A DNA stretch of 64,000 bases from Dehalococcoidia bacterium (GTDB taxonomy: Bacteria; Chloroflexota; Dehalococcoidia; Bin125): contig JAJDTU010000009.1 of assembly GCA_022826965.1 (NCBI GenBank), positions 124,001 to 188,000 of the forward strand, written 5' to 3'. Both the position numbers and the translations under genes were made by a program. This document shows, one piece after another, positions 16,153 to 39,132 of the stretch. The stretch's first letter is position 1, and the number at the start of each line of letters is the position of its first letter. The notes beneath the pieces were generated by a model, which saw only the letters and a program-made list of their open reading frames with translations, was not told the DNA's origin and did not search any database.

Positions 16153-19100
16153 TGTCGCAGCAGGCGCCGACTCCAGCCTCGAGTTCCAGGGGCGAGACAG
16201 CGAAGGAACTGGGCCGCCTGGCGCTGCGGCGTATCGCTTCGGCGCCGAGGCTCTCGACGGTGCTGCTGATCGGGGCGCTGCTGGCAGTGGGCCTGGCGAG
16301 CAGCGCGCCGATCTTCATCGAAGCGGTGCGTGATCTGGGGCTGCAGCAGACGCTCGCCGATGCCGACCCGGCATCGCTCGACCTGCGATTCAACCAGACC
16401 AACGTGACGGGGGCGGCCGAGTCGATCGACGACGTTGCGTCGCTGATCCACGAGGAAGTGACGGCTGCAGCCGCGTCGCTCACGGTTGGCCGGATGACCG
16501 CTCTGCGAACCGGCGGATACATCCTGCGCAGGTCGGACGAGCCGTTCGATCCGCCCGATGCCGATCACGCCACGTTCGTCGCACAGAGCGATCTGAGGGA
16601 CCTCTCGGAAATCGTGGCCGGCCGTGAGCCGGAGGCAACGAGCGATCTGCTGGAGGTGATGGTCGAGCGGCGGCAGGCGCAGCAGTTTGGTCTCGACGTT
16701 GGGGACGAACGCCTGGCGCAGCCGTTCTGGCTGGGGACCGAGCATGAGACTCGGGTGAGGATCGTGGGGATTATCGAGCCGTCGACCGACGCGCGGCGCT
16801 GGTCGACGCTCGATCCGCTGTTCCTGCCGGTCGCGGCGCTGGACACCGAACTACGGTTCTGGACGACCCGGGCGGGGATTCTCGGCATACTCGCCGAGCA
16901 GTCGCCGACGCTGCGGCTGTCGCTGCTGCAACGATTCCGGACCGACTTGCACGGGGCATCGGCGGCGGATGCGTCGGCAGCGGCCGATGCGCTGCAACAG
17001 ATGACGCGGCGGATTTCGCAGTCGGTGGACGGGATCCAGCAGGAGACGGAACTGGTCGACACGCTGGTCGGGTTCAGCCAGCGCTTCCAGTTCGCGCAGT
17101 CGACGCTGTTGATGATCGTGCTGCAGCTCGTGGGCGCTGTGTTGGTCTATGCGGTGGTGGCGTCGGCGATGCTCGCCGAGCAACGCACCGAGGACACGGC
17201 GTGGCTTCGTTCGCGCGGCGCGCGGCAGCGCGACGTCGCGGTGCTGCACATCGTTGAGGCCGCGATTCTGACCGCTCCGGCGATTGTCCTGGGGCCGCTG
17301 ATCGGCATGGGGCTGGTCAGTCTGCTGGGATTCGTCCCGCCGTTCGATGAGGCGCTGGCCGGTACGGGCGCAGGTCCGTTCCTGCCGGTTCCGCTGCCGG
17401 TCGAGTCGTGGTACCTGGCGCTGGGCGCGGGGGCGCTGGCGCTGCTGGCTCAGGCGGTGCCGACATATCGGGCGACGCGGCAGACGATGGTGACCACGCG
17501 CCGGGAGCGTGGACGGCCGCCGGCGTCGTGGACTCAGCGGGCCTTGATCGACGCGGCCGTGGCTGCGCTGGGCGCACTGCTGATCTTCGAACTGCAGTGG
17601 GCCGGCGACCCGATCGACTCGCCGTTGGTCGGAGAGACGCGGCTGGACTGGTTGGCGGTGGCGACGCCGACGGTGTTGCTGTTCGTGGTCGGGCTGATCG
17701 TGCTGCGGTTGTTCCCTCCGACGATGCGACTGCTCGCTCGACTTGCGTCGCTGTGGCGCTCGTTGACGTTGTTGATGGGGGCGTGGTACCTGGGGCGTAC
17801 GCCGACGCATTACGCGCGGACGGTGCTGTTGTTGACGATCGCGGGGGCGCTGGCGGTGTTTGCGGCGTCGTTCAGGACGACGCTCGATACGTCGTACCAC
17901 GATCGTTCGCTGCACGCGGTGGGCGCGTCGGTGCGGCTGACCGAGCCGATCTCGGACATCGTTCAGTATCAGGAGATTGAAGAAGTGAGCGGCGCATCGG
18001 TGGCACAGATCAAGCGGATCGTGGGGGCGTTCGAGGGGGATGAAGACTCCGGTCGTCTGCAGATCGCGGCGGTGGACTCCGAAGTGGTCGCCGATCAGTT
18101 GGTCGAACGCGACGCCGATTGGGCGTTGCCGCCGGCGGACCTGAGGGAGATTGCGGTACCACCGAACGAGGTCCAGGGTACCGTGATCGACGACCTCGGC
18201 GGCCGGCTGGAGTTGCAGATTGCGGTCGCGCACCTCGAGCAGGAGACGGTGATTGGGATCAAGGTCTTGGACGCCCTCGGGCGTTACTGGTGGTACGCCA
18301 TCGACACGCTCATCCCCGCCGAAGTGCAGGAAGAGCCGGAATGGATCACAATCTCCAACCGCCTGACGGAGGAACCGGCCGCCTATCTGCCGCTGGAGGG
18401 CGCGCGGCTGATCCAGGGGCAAAGCAGATTCAGCCCGACGGTGGCGGAGCGGCCGGTCGCGCCACTGACGCTGGTGTCGCTTGACCTGGCGATCACGCGG
18501 GCCGCGGGAGAGATCTTGCTGGGCGACTTGACCTACGCCAGGGGTGGTGAGAGCGACCTGTTGGCCGACTTCAGTTCAGGACGCTGGGAGGCGACACCGC
18601 TCGAGGTGGGCGAGGAGCCGCTCGACATTCTCGTGGTCAGCGAGGCGGGGGCACGGTATCGCTGGAATGCCATTCCATCGTCTCTGCGCGGAGTGCGCTA
18701 CATGGCGGAGCGGGGGCCGTTGCCCGCCCTGTTCTCGGCGCAGGCGATCGAACAGGGCCGGCTGAACATCGGCGAGACGGTCAAACTGCGCATCGGGCCA
18801 TCCTCGATGACGTTTCTGGTCGCCGGACAGTTTGAAACCTTCCCGAGCTACGACCCGCAGCGCGACGATCCGCTCGTGTTGATCGACCGCGCCGCATTCA
18901 TCGATCGGCTGTACGGCAGCGCGGCGGCCGGCGTGGCGCTGGCCGTGAGCAATGAACTGTGGGCTTCGGCGTCGCTGCAGCGCTGGGCCGGTCTGTTGGC
19001 TGAGCACGAGCTCGCGATCGAGGGCGATGGCGTCGCCACGATTGAGAGTGCGCGAGAGGAACTTGCGGCCGACCCGTTGATCGTCGCGTCGTGGAACGGG

Positions 19101-32129: not shown

Positions 32130-32149
32130 GAACTACAGTTCGGTATAAT
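32130..32149 (+). promoter_or_regulatory. LexA/SOS box next to a consensus -10 box
   Basis: GAACTACAGTTC (32130-32141) fits the Gram-positive LexA site GAAC-N4-GTTC exactly, and TATAAT (32144-32149) follows two bases later. LexA bound here would block the promoter core. The next gene starts at 32177 with GGAG six bases before its ATG. Confidence 0.8.
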
Positions 32150-32176
32150 GTTCTTCCACTTTGAGCGGAGCCAGGC

Positions 32177-33610
32177 ATGCCACCAGTTTCCTGCGTGCAA
32201 GTCACTCACTTCCGGGCACGGGCGGAGTTGGCCCGGCGGCCCGAGTTGGCGGATTGCGCCGGCCTGATCGTCGATCGTTCGAGGCGCAAGGCCGTCGTGG
32301 TCGATTGCCTGCCCGCGGTTTCCGGATCATTGCTGGGGATGCCGTTGGAGCGTGCGCGCTCGTTTGCGCCGGACGCGGTGGTGATCGATGCGGACGAGCC
32401 GCACTACCGGGGCGAGTTCGAACGGATGCTGTGCGCGCTTGAGCAGGTCAGCGAGCAGGTGGAAGGAGCGGAGCTGGGCGTCGCCTACGTGGGAGTGGAC
32501 GGCACATCGGCGATGAATGCGGAACTGCTTTGCGCGCTGCCTGAGCACTACCAGCCACGCATCGGGATCGGCGCGAACAAGTTTGGCGCGTTCGTCGCCG
32601 CGTACACGCGTCGTTCGTCGGGCGTGAGTAGCGTTCCACCTGACGCGGCAGCGTTTCTCGCGCCGCACTCGATTGATCTGCTGCCCTGCTCAACCGCTCT
32701 GACCGACGAGCTGCGCTTGCTTGATCTGCGCACGCTGGGCGAGGTTGCGGCGCAGGATGTCAACGCGTTGCTGGATCGCTTCGGGCACGAGGGGCGGCGC
32801 GCCTGGGAACTCTCGCGCGGGATCGACGACCGTCCGCTTGTTCCTCGCACGCACGAGGAATCGATCACGGAGACGCTCGCGCTGCCGTCCGAGGCGACCA
32901 CGCTGGAACTGCTGCGGGCGGCGGTGGACCGGCTGTTGCAACGGGCCTTCGCGCAGCCGCGCATGCAAGGCCGCTACGCCAACACCGCCAGGCTGAGCTG
33001 CTCGCTCGACGACGCGCCGGCCTGGGAGCAGACATTTCATTTCAAGAGCGGCGTGGGCGGTTGGCAGCGCGCCGCAGAGATCATCAAGGGACGATTGGAG
33101 ACGGAGCATCCGCCGGCTCCGGTCGAAGCGATGACAGTCACGCTGGCGAACCTCGGCGGGGCGACAGGCGAGCAGGGTTCGCTCTTCCCCGATCTGCGCC
33201 ACGATCGCGAGCGGCGCCTGCTGGAGACCGAACGGCAGCTGCGGGTGCGGCTGAACGGCCAGCGCTCGCTCAGCCGGCTGGTCGAGGTCGCGCCCTGGCA
33301 TCCGGTCCCGGAACTGCGCACGGCGCAGGTCTCGATCGACCCGTCGAGCGACGACGGCATGCGGCCGTTGAGCACACCGGAGATGGTCGCGGTGCGCGCG
33401 GGGCCGGCGCAGGAACCGCTCGCGGTTCAGATCGGCGAGCGCTGGCGAGAGGTGACGGGAATCGAAGAGCAGTGGAGTTTCGATCTCTGGTGGAGAGCCA
33501 GGCCAACGACCCGGACGTACTACCGGGTGAGTCAGGCGAACGATCAGCAGCTCGTCCTGTTCCGCGATCAACGCGAAGGCTGCTGGTATCGGCAGGGCGG
33601 GGTCGGATGA
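32177..33610 (+). CDS. imuB: ImuB-like inactive Y-family polymerase homologue
   Basis: A 477-residue Y-family (UmuC/DinB-like) protein. The palm is recognisable (IGIGANKFGAFVAAY), as are the helix-hairpin-helix region (DLRTLGEVAAQDVNALLDRF) and the little-finger domain. The metal-binding acidic residues are missing: the N-terminal Asp segment reads VTHFRARAEL and the SIDE motif is replaced by VGVDG. This loss is typical of ImuB, which acts as a scaffold rather than a polymerase. GEQGSLFPD near 337 looks like a beta-clamp-binding motif (QxSLF). The C-terminal WWRARPTTRTYYRV motif is found in ImuB relatives. It overlaps the dnaE2 start by four bases (ATGA). Confidence 0.87.
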   Translation: MPPVSCVQVTHFRARAELARRPELADCAGLIVDRSRRKAVVVDCLPAVSGSLLGMPLERARSFAPDAVVIDADEPHYRGEFERMLCALEQVSEQVEGAELGVAYVGVDGTSAMNAELLCALPEHYQPRIGIGANKFGAFVAAYTRRSSGVSSVPPDAAAFLAPHSIDLLPCSTALTDELRLLDLRTLGEVAAQDVNALLDRFGHEGRRAWELSRGIDDRPLVPRTHEESITETLALPSEATTLELLRAAVDRLLQRAFAQPRMQGRYANTARLSCSLDDAPAWEQTFHFKSGVGGWQRAAEIIKGRLETEHPPAPVEAMTVTLANLGGATGEQGSLFPDLRHDRERRLLETERQLRVRLNGQRSLSRLVEVAPWHPVPELRTAQVSIDPSSDDGMRPLSTPEMVAVRAGPAQEPLAVQIGERWREVTGIEEQWSFDLWWRARPTTRTYYRVSQANDQQLVLFRDQREGCWYRQGGVG

Positions 33611-36600
33611 GCTACGTCGAACTGCACGCCAAGAGCTTTTGTTCCTTCGGCCTGGGCTCGTCTCACGTGCACGAACTGCTGGCGCAAGCCGCCGAGTTCG
33701 GGATGCCCGCGCTGGCCCTGACCGATACCAACCTCTGCGGCGCGCTGGAGTTCGCGCGGCTGGCAACCAGCCTCGACATCCAGCCGATCACGGGCGGCGA
33801 GCTAACCCTGACGGATGGCTCCCGCCTCGCCTTGCTGACCAGGACACGCACGGGCTACGCCAACCTCTCGCGCCTGTTCACACTGGCCAACGAGATCGAC
33901 CGGCGCGAGCCCAAGCTCGATCCGGCGCTCCTGGCCGAGCACGCCGACGGGCTGGTGCTGCTCAGCGGGGGACGCAATGGACCACTCTCGCGGCTCGTCC
34001 TGGCAGGTGATCGAGCCGCAGCCCGCGAGCTGCTGGGGAGCTATCGGGAGTGGTTCGGAGCCGATTCGGTCTACGTCGAGTTGCAGCGGAACTTCCTGCA
34101 CGGCGACCGCGAGCGCAACCGCGAGCTCGTTTCGCTGGCCCGCGAGGTTGACGCGCGGCTGGTCGCCACGAACGACGTGCATTACCACGTACCCGAGCGT
34201 CACCGCCTGCAACAGGCGCTGGTCGCCGCGAACCACAACACGACGCTGGACCAGGCGCTGCGCCATCTCCACCCGAATTGCCACTTGCACCTCAAGTCTG
34301 AGGCGGAGATGGCGCAGCTGTTCGCCGATCTGCCCGAAGCGCTCGACAACAGTCAACGAATCGCCGCACAGTGCAGCTTCAGGCTCGACGCCGACCTCGG
34401 CTACACGCTGCCGCAGCCATTGGTGCCGGAGGGGTACACGACGGAGAGCTACCTCAGGCGGCTCTGCGACGAAGCGGCCGTCCGACGCTATGGCTCGCTC
34501 AACCGGCAAGTCGAGGCGCGGCTGGACGAAGAGTTCGGCCTGATCCAGCGGCACAAGCTGGCCGGCTTCCTGCTGCTCTACCGCGAGATCGTGCGCCTGG
34601 CCCGGCGGATCATGGAGGAGCGCGGCCTGGTCGAGCCGGAGACGCCGCTCGAGCAGCAACCGCCCGGACGCGGGCGCGGCTCGTCCGTGGCGTTCCTGGT
34701 CGGGTACCTGATCGGGATCAGCCACATCGATCCGCTGCGCTGGGATCTCACGCTCGAACGCTTCCTGCCCGAGGACATGACCTCGCTGCCCGATATTGAT
34801 CTCGACTTCCCGCGCGGTCTGCGCGATGAGCTGATCGAGCGCGTGCACGAACACTTTGGCCGTGACTACGCCGTCCTGGCGGGGGCGATCTCGACCTACT
34901 CGATCAAAGGCGTGATCCAGGACCTGGGCAAGGCGCTGGATCTGCCGCCGGACGAGCTGCGCTCGTTGTCGGAGCAACTGCACTCGCGCGGCGGAGGCGG
35001 GCTGCGCGAGCAGATGGAGCAACTACCCACATTCAGAGACAAGGTGGACGCGTACGGCTGGCGCACCCTCGTCGAACTGGCGCCGCAGTTGATCGGCGCG
35101 CCGCGCGGACTGAGTCAGCATGTCGGCGGGATGATCCTGAGCAGTTCGCCCATCCCGGAGATGGTTCCAGTGCGAGCCGGCGCGATCGCGGGCCGCTACA
35201 TCATGGACTGGGACAAGGACAGCGTGGCCGACGCCAACTTCGCCAAGATCGATCTGCTCTCGCTGCCCGTCCTGGATCAACTCGATGAGGCGTTGGATCT
35301 GGTCGAGCAGCGGGAGGGCGAGCGTCCCGACCTGAGCCGGATCAGTCCCGAGGACGACGGCGTCTACGACCTGATCAACGAGGGACGGTCGAAGGGAGTA
35401 TTCCTGCTCCAATCGCCGGCCCAGCTCAAGATGGCGCAACGGCTCAGATCACGCAATCTGCGCGATCTGGCGTACCAGATCGCCCTGATCCGGCCGGGCG
35501 TCGGCACCCAGGGCAGCGCGGTGAGCCAGTTCGTCGAGCGCTACCGCCACGGTGCGCAATGGGAATACGATCATCCGCTTGAACAACGCGCGCTGGAGCG
35601 CGGCTACGGCGTGATCGTCTGGCAGGAACAGGTCGTGCAGCTGATCATGGATGTGGCCGGGATGACCAGCGCCGAGGCCGACCAGGTGCGGCGCGCGTTT
35701 GCGAAGACGAACAACGAACATCTCATCGAGATGCACCGCGCGCGCTTTCTCGAGGGTGCGCGAGCGAACGGCGTCGCGAGCGATATCGCGCAGCGCATCT
35801 TCGCCAAGATCAACGGACATTACATGTTCCCCGAGTCGCACTCGCACGCCTTCGCGATCACCGCCTTTCAGGCCGCCTGGCTGAAGCGCTACTACCCGTT
35901 GGAGTTCTTCGTCTCGTTGATCAACAACCAGCCGATGGGCTTCTATCCCGTCGAGACGCTGAAAGAGGACGCGCGCCGGTTCGGCGTGTTTTTCCTCAAC
36001 CCCTGCATCAACCGCAGCCGGGTGCGCTGCGGGCCCGAGGACGGCGCGGCCAGGCTGGGATTGGGCATGATCAAGGACATCGGCCCCGAGTCGGCCAAGC
36101 TGATCGTGAAGGAGCGCGAGCTTCACGGCCCGTACTCGGACGCCGGCGAGCTTGTGCGCCGGACCGGGCTCAAGCCGCAGTCCGTCCGCTCGCTGGTCGA
36201 GGCGGGTGCGTTCGACGTGCTGACGCCCAACCGCCGCGAGGCGCTGTGGGATGTCGGACTCTCGATCCGGCCGGCGCGCCACGGCCAGCGCGCCTTCCCC
36301 GTCGCTACGGCAGACCCGCCGCCAAGGTTCAACGACTTCACGGACTTCGAGAAGATGGCCGGCGAGTACCGCGTGCTCGGCATCTACCCCCGCGGTCACG
36401 TAATGGAGTTCATCCGTCCCAGTCTCGATGCCAGCGTGCGTACGACCGCGGAGACGTATCAGGCTGAGGACGGCGAGCGGATCCAGGTCGCGGGTTGGCC
36501 GATCGCTCGGCAGCACCCGCGAGGCGCAGACGGGATCGTGTTCGTCACGATCGAGGATGAGACCAGCGACGTGCAGGCGTTCATATCACCCAAGGTGTTC

Positions 36601-36747
36601 GCCCGCTGCCGGCGGGCGCTGGCGAATCAGATCATCCTGTTGACGGGCCGGATCGATCGTTGGGACGGCACAACCAACATCTTCGCCGAGCGGGTCGATG
36701 TCGTCGGCGCTGACGTCCGCCTGCCTTCCGCTCACGACTGGCACTGA
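33607..36747 (+). CDS. dnaE2: Error-prone DNA polymerase III alpha subunit (DnaE2/ImuC)
   Basis: A 1046-residue C-family polymerase. It has an N-terminal PHP domain (YVELHAKSFCSFG, ALTDTNLCGALEF), then the palm with the catalytic acidic residues in SLPDIDLDFP (D398 and D400) and FAKIDLLSL (D549). Next come thumb/fingers, a tandem helix-hairpin-helix and a C-terminal OB domain. The PHP start HAKSFCSFG differs from the HxHSxYS of replicative DnaE, and the length is shorter than DnaE1, both typical of DnaE2. It makes mutagenic translesion products with ImuB after DNA damage. The true start is ATG 33607, inside the ImuB stop; the open frame extends far upstream but that part belongs to imuB in another frame. 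Confidence 0.95.
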   Translation: MSYVELHAKSFCSFGLGSSHVHELLAQAAEFGMPALALTDTNLCGALEFARLATSLDIQPITGGELTLTDGSRLALLTRTRTGYANLSRLFTLANEIDRREPKLDPALLAEHADGLVLLSGGRNGPLSRLVLAGDRAAARELLGSYREWFGADSVYVELQRNFLHGDRERNRELVSLAREVDARLVATNDVHYHVPERHRLQQALVAANHNTTLDQALRHLHPNCHLHLKSEAEMAQLFADLPEALDNSQRIAAQCSFRLDADLGYTLPQPLVPEGYTTESYLRRLCDEAAVRRYGSLNRQVEARLDEEFGLIQRHKLAGFLLLYREIVRLARRIMEERGLVEPETPLEQQPPGRGRGSSVAFLVGYLIGISHIDPLRWDLTLERFLPEDMTSLPDIDLDFPRGLRDELIERVHEHFGRDYAVLAGAISTYSIKGVIQDLGKALDLPPDELRSLSEQLHSRGGGGLREQMEQLPTFRDKVDAYGWRTLVELAPQLIGAPRGLSQHVGGMILSSSPIPEMVPVRAGAIAGRYIMDWDKDSVADANFAKIDLLSLPVLDQLDEALDLVEQREGERPDLSRISPEDDGVYDLINEGRSKGVFLLQSPAQLKMAQRLRSRNLRDLAYQIALIRPGVGTQGSAVSQFVERYRHGAQWEYDHPLEQRALERGYGVIVWQEQVVQLIMDVAGMTSAEADQVRRAFAKTNNEHLIEMHRARFLEGARANGVASDIAQRIFAKINGHYMFPESHSHAFAITAFQAAWLKRYYPLEFFVSLINNQPMGFYPVETLKEDARRFGVFFLNPCINRSRVRCGPEDGAARLGLGMIKDIGPESAKLIVKERELHGPYSDAGELVRRTGLKPQSVRSLVEAGAFDVLTPNRREALWDVGLSIRPARHGQRAFPVATADPPPRFNDFTDFEKMAGEYRVLGIYPRGHVMEFIRPSLDASVRTTAETYQAEDGERIQVAGWPIARQHPRGADGIVFVTIEDETSDVQAFISPKVFARCRRALANQIILLTGRIDRWDGTTNIFAERVDVVGADVRLPSAHDWH

Positions 36748-38007: not shown

Positions 38008-39132
38008 TCACGCAGTTGGGTCGGGTTGCAGAGACCAGCTGATCTCAGCGTCGAGAAATCTCCCGATCTCGGCGAACTCAGCCTCGAGTTGCGCCTGTGC
38101 GCTCTCTGACAATTCCTCGAAGCATGTGACCCTGACGGTCAGTCCGCGGGCTCGACGTTTGCGGTCCCAGGTGCCGACCAGTCGGCCGTCGATCAGGACG
38201 CAGGGACGGAGCATGCCGCCGCCGGCGTTGACGCGCTTGAGCAGATGGTCCGGGACATCGAGGTCTCGTTTGGCGTAGCCGACGATGTAGGGGTCGAATG
38301 GTCCCAACACTCGCAAGACGCCCTGCGGGCCGTGCAGCACATCGTTGAGCTGAGCTGCTCCGGTATGCGACATCCACATCGTCCGGCCATCGACGTTGAC
38401 TTCGGTCAGATCCTCCGCAGCCGCCTGTAGACATCGGCGGGTGTCGGCGGCGGGCAGCCCCGACCACCAGCGGAAATCGGACTGTGTGGCCGGGCCGTAG
38501 GCGGCGAAGTAACGCCGGGCGAGTTCGGCGCCCGGGTCAGGTGGCGGGTCGGCCGTGGGCAGCCAGTCATCTATCAGGACGTGAGTAGCCTCGCCGTCGC
38601 GGTTGGGACCGAAGCAGCTGACGCCCAGCAGCGAGGTGGTGCGCAGCAGGTGCGGTGTTGCCTGACCATCCGACGGCAAGCCCGCCGAACGGAAGGCGTC
38701 GCCGATCTCGGCTCGGGTCATCGGTCCATTGGACGCCAGTTGCTTGCGCAGGAACTTGAGCACCTTGCCGTGGTCGTCGTCGGAGATGCCGAGATCGGCT
38801 CGACGTTTGAGCGCCTTAGCGTCCATGGCTTCGCCGAGCAGGTCGAGCATCCAGCGAAGGTCCTCGGACGGGACGAGATGGAGGGTGCCTCGCATGAGCC
38901 AGTTGCGGACGATCGAGCGGTCGGAGAGGCGGGCATGGTCGACGTCGGCGGCGGTCAGGCCGGTCGAGCGGACGCCGACGCCGAGTTGCTCGCCCAGACG
39001 GTCCTGGGCCTGGATAGCAGCGGCGGATCGGACGGTGTCGGCTGCGCGCGCGTCGCGTTGGGTGCCGAGCAGCTGGGCGTGCAGGCGGAGGCGATGAGCC
39101 TCGCGGCGGGTGAGGGCGATCTCGGCGGTCAT
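38008..39132 (-). CDS. AlkZ/AlkX-like winged-helix DNA glycosylase-family protein
   Basis: A 374-residue protein of the HTH_42/YcaQ-AlkZ superfamily, built from three winged-helix domains. The signature IQAQDRLGEQL contains the QxQ pair (Q41, Q43) that is catalytic in AlkZ, which unhooks interstrand crosslinks. RNWLMRGTLHLV and YFAAYGPATQSDFRWWSGL are further family motifs. It is probably a base-excision enzyme for bulky or alkylated bases, though many relatives are untested. It lies near the DnaE2/ImuB cassette, but no SOS box was seen. The start at 39132 has a TAGGCT box seven bases upstream and no ribosome binding site. Confidence 0.87.
   Translation of the reverse strand: MTAEIALTRREAHRLRLHAQLLGTQRDARAADTVRSAAAIQAQDRLGEQLGVGVRSTGLTAADVDHARLSDRSIVRNWLMRGTLHLVPSEDLRWMLDLLGEAMDAKALKRRADLGISDDDHGKVLKFLRKQLASNGPMTRAEIGDAFRSAGLPSDGQATPHLLRTTSLLGVSCFGPNRDGEATHVLIDDWLPTADPPPDPGAELARRYFAAYGPATQSDFRWWSGLPAADTRRCLQAAAEDLTEVNVDGRTMWMSHTGAAQLNDVLHGPQGVLRVLGPFDPYIVGYAKRDLDVPDHLLKRVNAGGGMLRPCVLIDGRLVGTWDRKRRARGLTVRVTCFEELSESAQAQLEAEFAEIGRFLDAEISWSLQPDPTA

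Follow-up and report, generated by a model that had tools for sequence, protein, structure and literature searches.

The operon at positions 32130–36747 of the window (the whole 64-kb stretch of Dehalococcoidia DNA that was analysed) is likely to encode a translesion mutasome that is repressed by LexA and lacks ImuA, whose scaffold arose by a fusion in Chloroflexota separate from that of canonical ImuB, and which later moved between phyla. With the balance tilting only slightly in its favour, a fuller reading is that an ImuB-type scaffold originated a second time, in a Chloroflexota lineage without ImuA, as a protein working with RecA itself, that the cassette spread horizontally among sponge symbionts of at least three phyla, and that in some Acidimicrobiia a local damage-type promoter took the place of its box. 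The locus has these features:

32130–32141, plus strand: LexA (SOS) box GAACTACAGTTC, GAAC-N4-GTTC (sequence; position conserved in homologous loci, also found 5′ of lexA)
32144–32149, plus strand: TATAAT, the −10 element of the promoter for the operon (sequence; TAnnnT conserved behind the box)
32177–33610, plus strand: fused iPolY-ImuB-C scaffold of 477 aa with ImuB architecture (Pfam IMS at the N-terminus; profile match; AF2 model; split homologues)
32204–32482, plus strand: stretch from T10 to G101/V102, where the Y-family active site has lost its catalytic acids (aligned to DinB of the same genome)
33173–33187, plus strand: putative beta-clamp motif QGSLF, residues 333–337 (conservation; disordered loop in the model)
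33194–33286, plus strand: RecA-NT-like helix and strand, residues ~340–370 (AF2 model; non-significant RecA similarity)
33353–33607, plus strand: ImuB-C domain, residues 393–477 (encoded by an ORF of its own at 26 loci in the class; hhalign with the canonical ImuB C-terminus)
33607–36747, plus strand: dnaE2, error-prone DNA polymerase of 1046 aa (NCBIfam PRK05672; catalytic motifs; tree)

The scaffold and polymerase genes

Pfam detected only an N-terminal Y-family domain (IMS) in the 477-aa scaffold. The protein had been annotated from its letters as ImuB-like, with lost catalytic acids and a QGSLF clamp motif; both the loss and the QGSLF sequence, a putative clamp motif, were confirmed. On alignment with the genome's own DinB, the three metal-binding D/D/E positions corresponded to T10/G101/V102, so that all three acids are gone; QGSLF occupies residues 333–337, with Q333 invariant in 42 homologues. 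No row of the fused or split alignments had an intact D/D/E triad. Since the triad is broken in fused and split rows alike, the Y-family active site was probably lost before the fusion.

A profile of 42 fused proteins matched canonical ImuB over its full length, including ImuB-C, with 99.7% probability; the scaffold thus combines an inactive Y-family domain and ImuB-C in one chain, as in the canonical mutasome. The AF2 model (mean pLDDT 84, pTM 0.53) displayed a Y-family fold, with DinB/Dpo4-type proteins as the top Foldseek matches, and a beta-rich C-terminus. QGSLF fell inside a disordered loop, followed by a helix (340–358) and a strand (366–370) where the RecA-NT motif is expected. Profile comparison of the scaffold with RecA gave the right register for RecA-NT but was not significant against column shuffles.

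DnaE2 matched the NCBIfam model PRK05672 (error-prone DNA polymerase) at 1.5e-237, yet below the model's cut-off. It contains the catalytic motifs PDIDLDF and KIDLL, whereas the PHP motif seems to have degenerated (HAK, TDT). As first annotated, dnaE2 starts inside the scaffold stop through an ATGA overlap (33607–33610); outside the closest relatives this overlap is not retained. A gene for an AlkZ-like DNA glycosylase (PF06224; window 38008–39132, minus strand) is situated two genes downstream of dnaE2.

Probable LexA control of the operon

The initial annotation placed a perfect GAAC-N4-GTTC box two nucleotides 5′ of TATAAT, and this was confirmed: a GG spacer separates GAACTACAGTTC (32130–32141) from TATAAT (32144–32149), and the scaffold ORF starts at the ATG at 32177. 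A strict sigma-70 consensus scan called no promoter here because no good −35 element is present.

A single perfect box is not rare. Two were observed in the window against 1.0 expected, and 32 in the 3.0-Mb genome against 28 for a reversed control pattern, which is near the chance number; few of the other genomic boxes whose context was inspected were promoter-like. The second one in the window, GAACTACGGTTC (16848–16859), has no −10 element behind it and is probably a chance occurrence. It is the positional conservation beside a −10 element that points to GAACTACAGTTC as a real operator. Among the homologous loci, 13 of the 15 fused and 18 of the 26 split ones have a perfect box at their 5′ side. 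Among 75 named homologous loci it was upstream in 44, a 126-fold excess over background: the upstream DNA, 22,108 nt in all, contained 44 boxes, and the other 825,004 nt contained 13. TAnnnT followed within 14 nt in all 44. Despite the near-chance count in the genome, conservation over these 75 loci led us to reject a chance match.

The SOS control proposed at first annotation agrees with the presence of one LexA in the genome (L017 1709–2434, minus strand). This protein has an Ala-Gly site together with Ser and Lys, as expected of a self-cleaving LexA. A box of its own, GAACGGAGGTTC, lies ~130 nt 5′ of the lexA start, and at the same place in 14 members of the genus the box is perfect in nine and has one mismatch in five. 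The sole box 5′ of recA has one mismatch. The lexA box (L017 2562–2573) is also situated just 5′ of a TTATAAT facing a divergent gene (L017 2695–3447, plus strand), and this single box may serve two promoters. Given a lexA gene in the genome and a LexA motif at the operon promoter, LexA control of scaffold and dnaE2 appears well supported on sequence grounds.

Ten Acidimicrobiia copies of the fused gene without a GAAC-N4-GTTC box (L172, L176, L179, L180, L184, L186, L187, L188, L202 and L207) share TGTCAC-N9-TAAGGT, or a close form, upstream. The recA promoters of four such genomes (L229, L230, L233 and L234) carry TGTCACTGGTCGTCTTTAGAGT, a similar TGTCAC...TAGAGT element. We take the TGTCAC type to resemble the LexA-independent recA promoter of actinobacteria, with slightly different spacing. 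This suggests that the Acidimicrobiia copies were rewired to the damage response of their new host.

These data bear on the view that the box arose by chance or is the site of another regulator and that the operon lies outside SOS control. Most copies of one Acidimicrobiia group lack the box and the genomic count is close to chance, as this view would have it; however, the box keeps its place beside the −10 element and 5′ of lexA itself, and the box-less copies have instead a conserved element like that of their recA promoters. We regard the view as very improbable and LexA repression as the preferred reading.

Absence of ImuA and a proposed role of RecA

ImuA, noted from the start as missing from the locus, was sought in the whole genome with a profile derived from four ImuA proteins of proteobacteria and a Thermomicrobium roseum homologue. 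In the 97% complete assembly this profile detected only RecA (59 bits), against 190 bits for the positive control, a held-out Azospirillum ImuA, so neither locus nor genome yielded an imuA; it is possible that one lies on a contig missing from the assembly. The other fused-type genomes tested likewise gave RecA and no ImuA with this profile, and two split-type genomes gave a very weak second match only. Two Caldilineaceae (G490 and G491) had two RecA-like proteins each, the pair being encoded apart from the fused cassette; one of them could act in the place of ImuA.

Two other searches were set aside. As a test for ImuA, PF00154 found one RecA in the genome and proved insensitive, since proteobacterial ImuA gave no match to it; NF033429 had no matches in 400 genomes of the phylum and none in the control genomes either, and was uninformative.

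In ImuA-less systems RecA has been proposed to take the role of ImuA (PMC6511836, PMC12926913). By analogy, RecA would be the expected third partner of the present cassette, so two genes need not mean two components. A mutasome made up solely of scaffold and DnaE2, lacking any partner of the RecA family, would suit a genome without ImuA and a RecA-NT similarity that is not significant. The model, however, places a helix and a strand where RecA-NT should be, in the register expected from RecA, and published ImuA-less systems retain a RecA-NT motif (PMC6511836, PMC12926913). We therefore hold the partnerless arrangement to be unlikely and favour one with RecA.

In the mechanism proposed here, RecA filaments would trigger self-cleavage of LexA and thereby free the box at the promoter, and a single operon would supply both scaffold and DnaE2. 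The catalytically dead Y-family/ImuB-C scaffold is predicted to dock on the beta clamp through QGSLF and to hold DnaE2 by its C-terminal beta domain, while DnaE2 would carry out error-prone synthesis. RecA would probably stand in for ImuA, with the RecA-NT-like segment of the scaffold as its binding site.

Origin of the fused scaffold

In other members of the class, 26 loci encode iPolY and ImuB-C as two adjacent or overlapping ORFs, with dnaE2 coming next in most cases; a single ORF encodes both in the window's genus and in two genomes from a different family. The seam is recognizable: in split systems iPolY ends in ...VEPWSRIPERR... and ImuB-C carries ...RPLNAPE..., and fused proteins keep both motifs as ...VAPWHPVPELR...RPLSTPE.... 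The 75 named loci came from a scan of 84,980 species genomes; 74 of them were fused and 72 had a dnaE2 match, the scan patterns having been drawn from the fused alignment and being thus biased towards fused forms.

In the DnaE2 tree all fused rows formed one clade (support 100). This clade joined the class's split systems (100), and canonical DnaE2 stood apart from them (100). Grouping fused with canonical DnaE2 was rejected (AU p 6.7e-67). The canonical references in the trees were proteobacterial plasmid copies only, and the published DnaE2X references were left out of the DnaE2 tree. The iPolY tree agreed with the DnaE2 tree, and alone it did not reject a clade of fused proteins with canonical ImuB (AU p 0.186).

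Because the trees set the fused clade beside the split systems, and the canonical grouping is rejected for DnaE2, it appears that a second ImuB-type fusion took place, independently and without ImuA. Adjacent, overlapping iPolY and imuB-C genes would have been joined in Chloroflexota, apart from the fusion that gave canonical ImuB. The protein is imuB-like in architecture; as to lineage, trees and split homologues place it outside canonical ImuB and point to a separate iPolY and ImuB-C fusion. Repeated fission from a fused ancestor would be a less likely account of the same pattern.

A canonical ImuA-ImuB-DnaE2 system that lost imuA, its fusion inherited from canonical ImuB, would explain why the ImuB domain order is matched over the full length, and the iPolY tree by itself allows it. 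It is nevertheless improbable: DnaE2 joins the split ImuA-less systems of the class and is kept from the canonical clade by the AU test above, several fissions would be needed in the relatives, and a plain search with the scaffold recovered no canonical ImuB on plasmids, despite 845 plasmid records carrying a DnaE2-like polymerase. We thus retain the separate fusion as the likelier origin.

Distribution and probable transfer

The record names of the fused loci include Dehalococcoidia, SAR202, Chloroflexi/Chloroflexota, Caldilineaceae, one Anaerolineaceae, Acidimicrobiia and Ca. Entotheonella. Three fused loci are in chromosome-level records (Acidimicrobiales OX638344.1, Entotheonella OX639990.1 and Caldilineaceae OX638330.1), which disfavours misbinning. 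Of 247 genomes in the class to which the Acidimicrobiales host belongs, only 5 had a strong match.

The fused clade lies beside the split systems of Chloroflexota, so that finding it in other phyla as well implies transfer; the fused cassette would have moved between phyla after the fusion. Monophyly of the Acidimicrobiia copies was not rejected by the AU test (p 0.174), a result compatible with different numbers of inter-phylum transfers. RecA identity was not used as evidence of transfer: RecA of Acidimicrobiia and that of other families in the class are about equally distant (near 60%). Among viral, phage and plasmid carriers no fused cassette was found.

Two or three fused cassettes per genome were seen in the genome with L200, L203 and L206 (CATOSI010000001–3), in G009 (C35 and C25) and in G025 (C25 and C21); in the L206 copy the iPolY match extends over two frames. 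G001, G005 and G008, three members of the window's genus, gave a DinB-type match only and had no fused cassette, and the cassette seems to have been lost or gained within the genus.

Judging from the names of the MAG records, bacteria with the fused cassette seem to live mostly in marine sponges. The 'jk18x' bins are Ircinia symbionts (PMC9531527), and the prefixes RHO, IRC, COS and APA would, as names, fit the sponges of PMC8163846. A literature search combining sponge and DnaE2 returned nothing relevant. Occurrence in several phyla of apparent sponge symbionts points to a shared stress or to gene exchange in that habitat.

Comparison with known systems

The ImuA-ImuB-DnaE2 mutasome is an inducible mutator of many bacteria. 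The idea of a compact two-gene mutasome, put forward in the initial annotation, is supported by the lexA with its box and by the lack of imuA; DnaE2 systems that have an inactive Y-family protein and no ImuA had been published before. Such operons consist of iPolY, standalone ImuB-C and DnaE2X, or of iPolY and DnaE2B, and ImuB has been proposed to stem from the joining of a Y-family protein to ImuB-C; the available parts of the two surveys report no fused form without ImuA (PMC6511836, PMC12926913).

The DnaE2X-iPolY-ImuBC-RecA type (Kyrpidia tusciae), as described there (PMC6511836, PMC12926913), resembles the window's cassette in its operon of inactive Y-family protein, ImuB-C and DnaE2, in the lack of ImuA and in RecA as proposed partner. 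Its layout is that of the split relatives in the window's class, whose systems the window's DnaE2 joins, in a tree that omits published DnaE2X references. It differs in that ImuB-C is standalone, whereas in the window and at 74 of the 75 named loci ImuB-C is fused to iPolY. The DnaE2B-iPolY-RecA systems (Streptomyces DinB2 and Geobacter DinB2 types; PMC12926913) are alike in having two genes, an inactive Y-family protein with DnaE2 and no ImuA; they have no ImuB-C, a domain present in the window's scaffold.

With canonical ImuA-ImuB-DnaE2 (PMC12926913; Agrobacterium and Burkholderia cassettes) the window shares the scaffold domain order and full-length profile match, the operon with dnaE2 and LexA-type control. 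It differs in having no ImuA in the genome, in a scaffold from which plain search finds no canonical ImuB, and in a DnaE2 of another clade, outside DnaE2A as represented by proteobacterial references only. Thermomicrobium roseum (L215), in the wider Chloroflexota, also has a Y-family protein with an ImuB-C-like tail adjoining dnaE2, but its operon contains its own RecA-like (ImuA) gene and its DnaE2 is only 36% identical to that of the window.

The window's cassette is predicted to work like the published ImuA-less systems and like ImuB, but departs from each in a defining trait, having no ImuA, no DnaE2A by the present tree and no standalone ImuB-C. A fused ImuA-less lineage makes the proposal on the origin of ImuB testable, in that one can ask if a fused scaffold works with RecA alone. 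If the reading given here is true, the cassette is a convergent version of the fused ImuA-less form which that earlier proposal requires.
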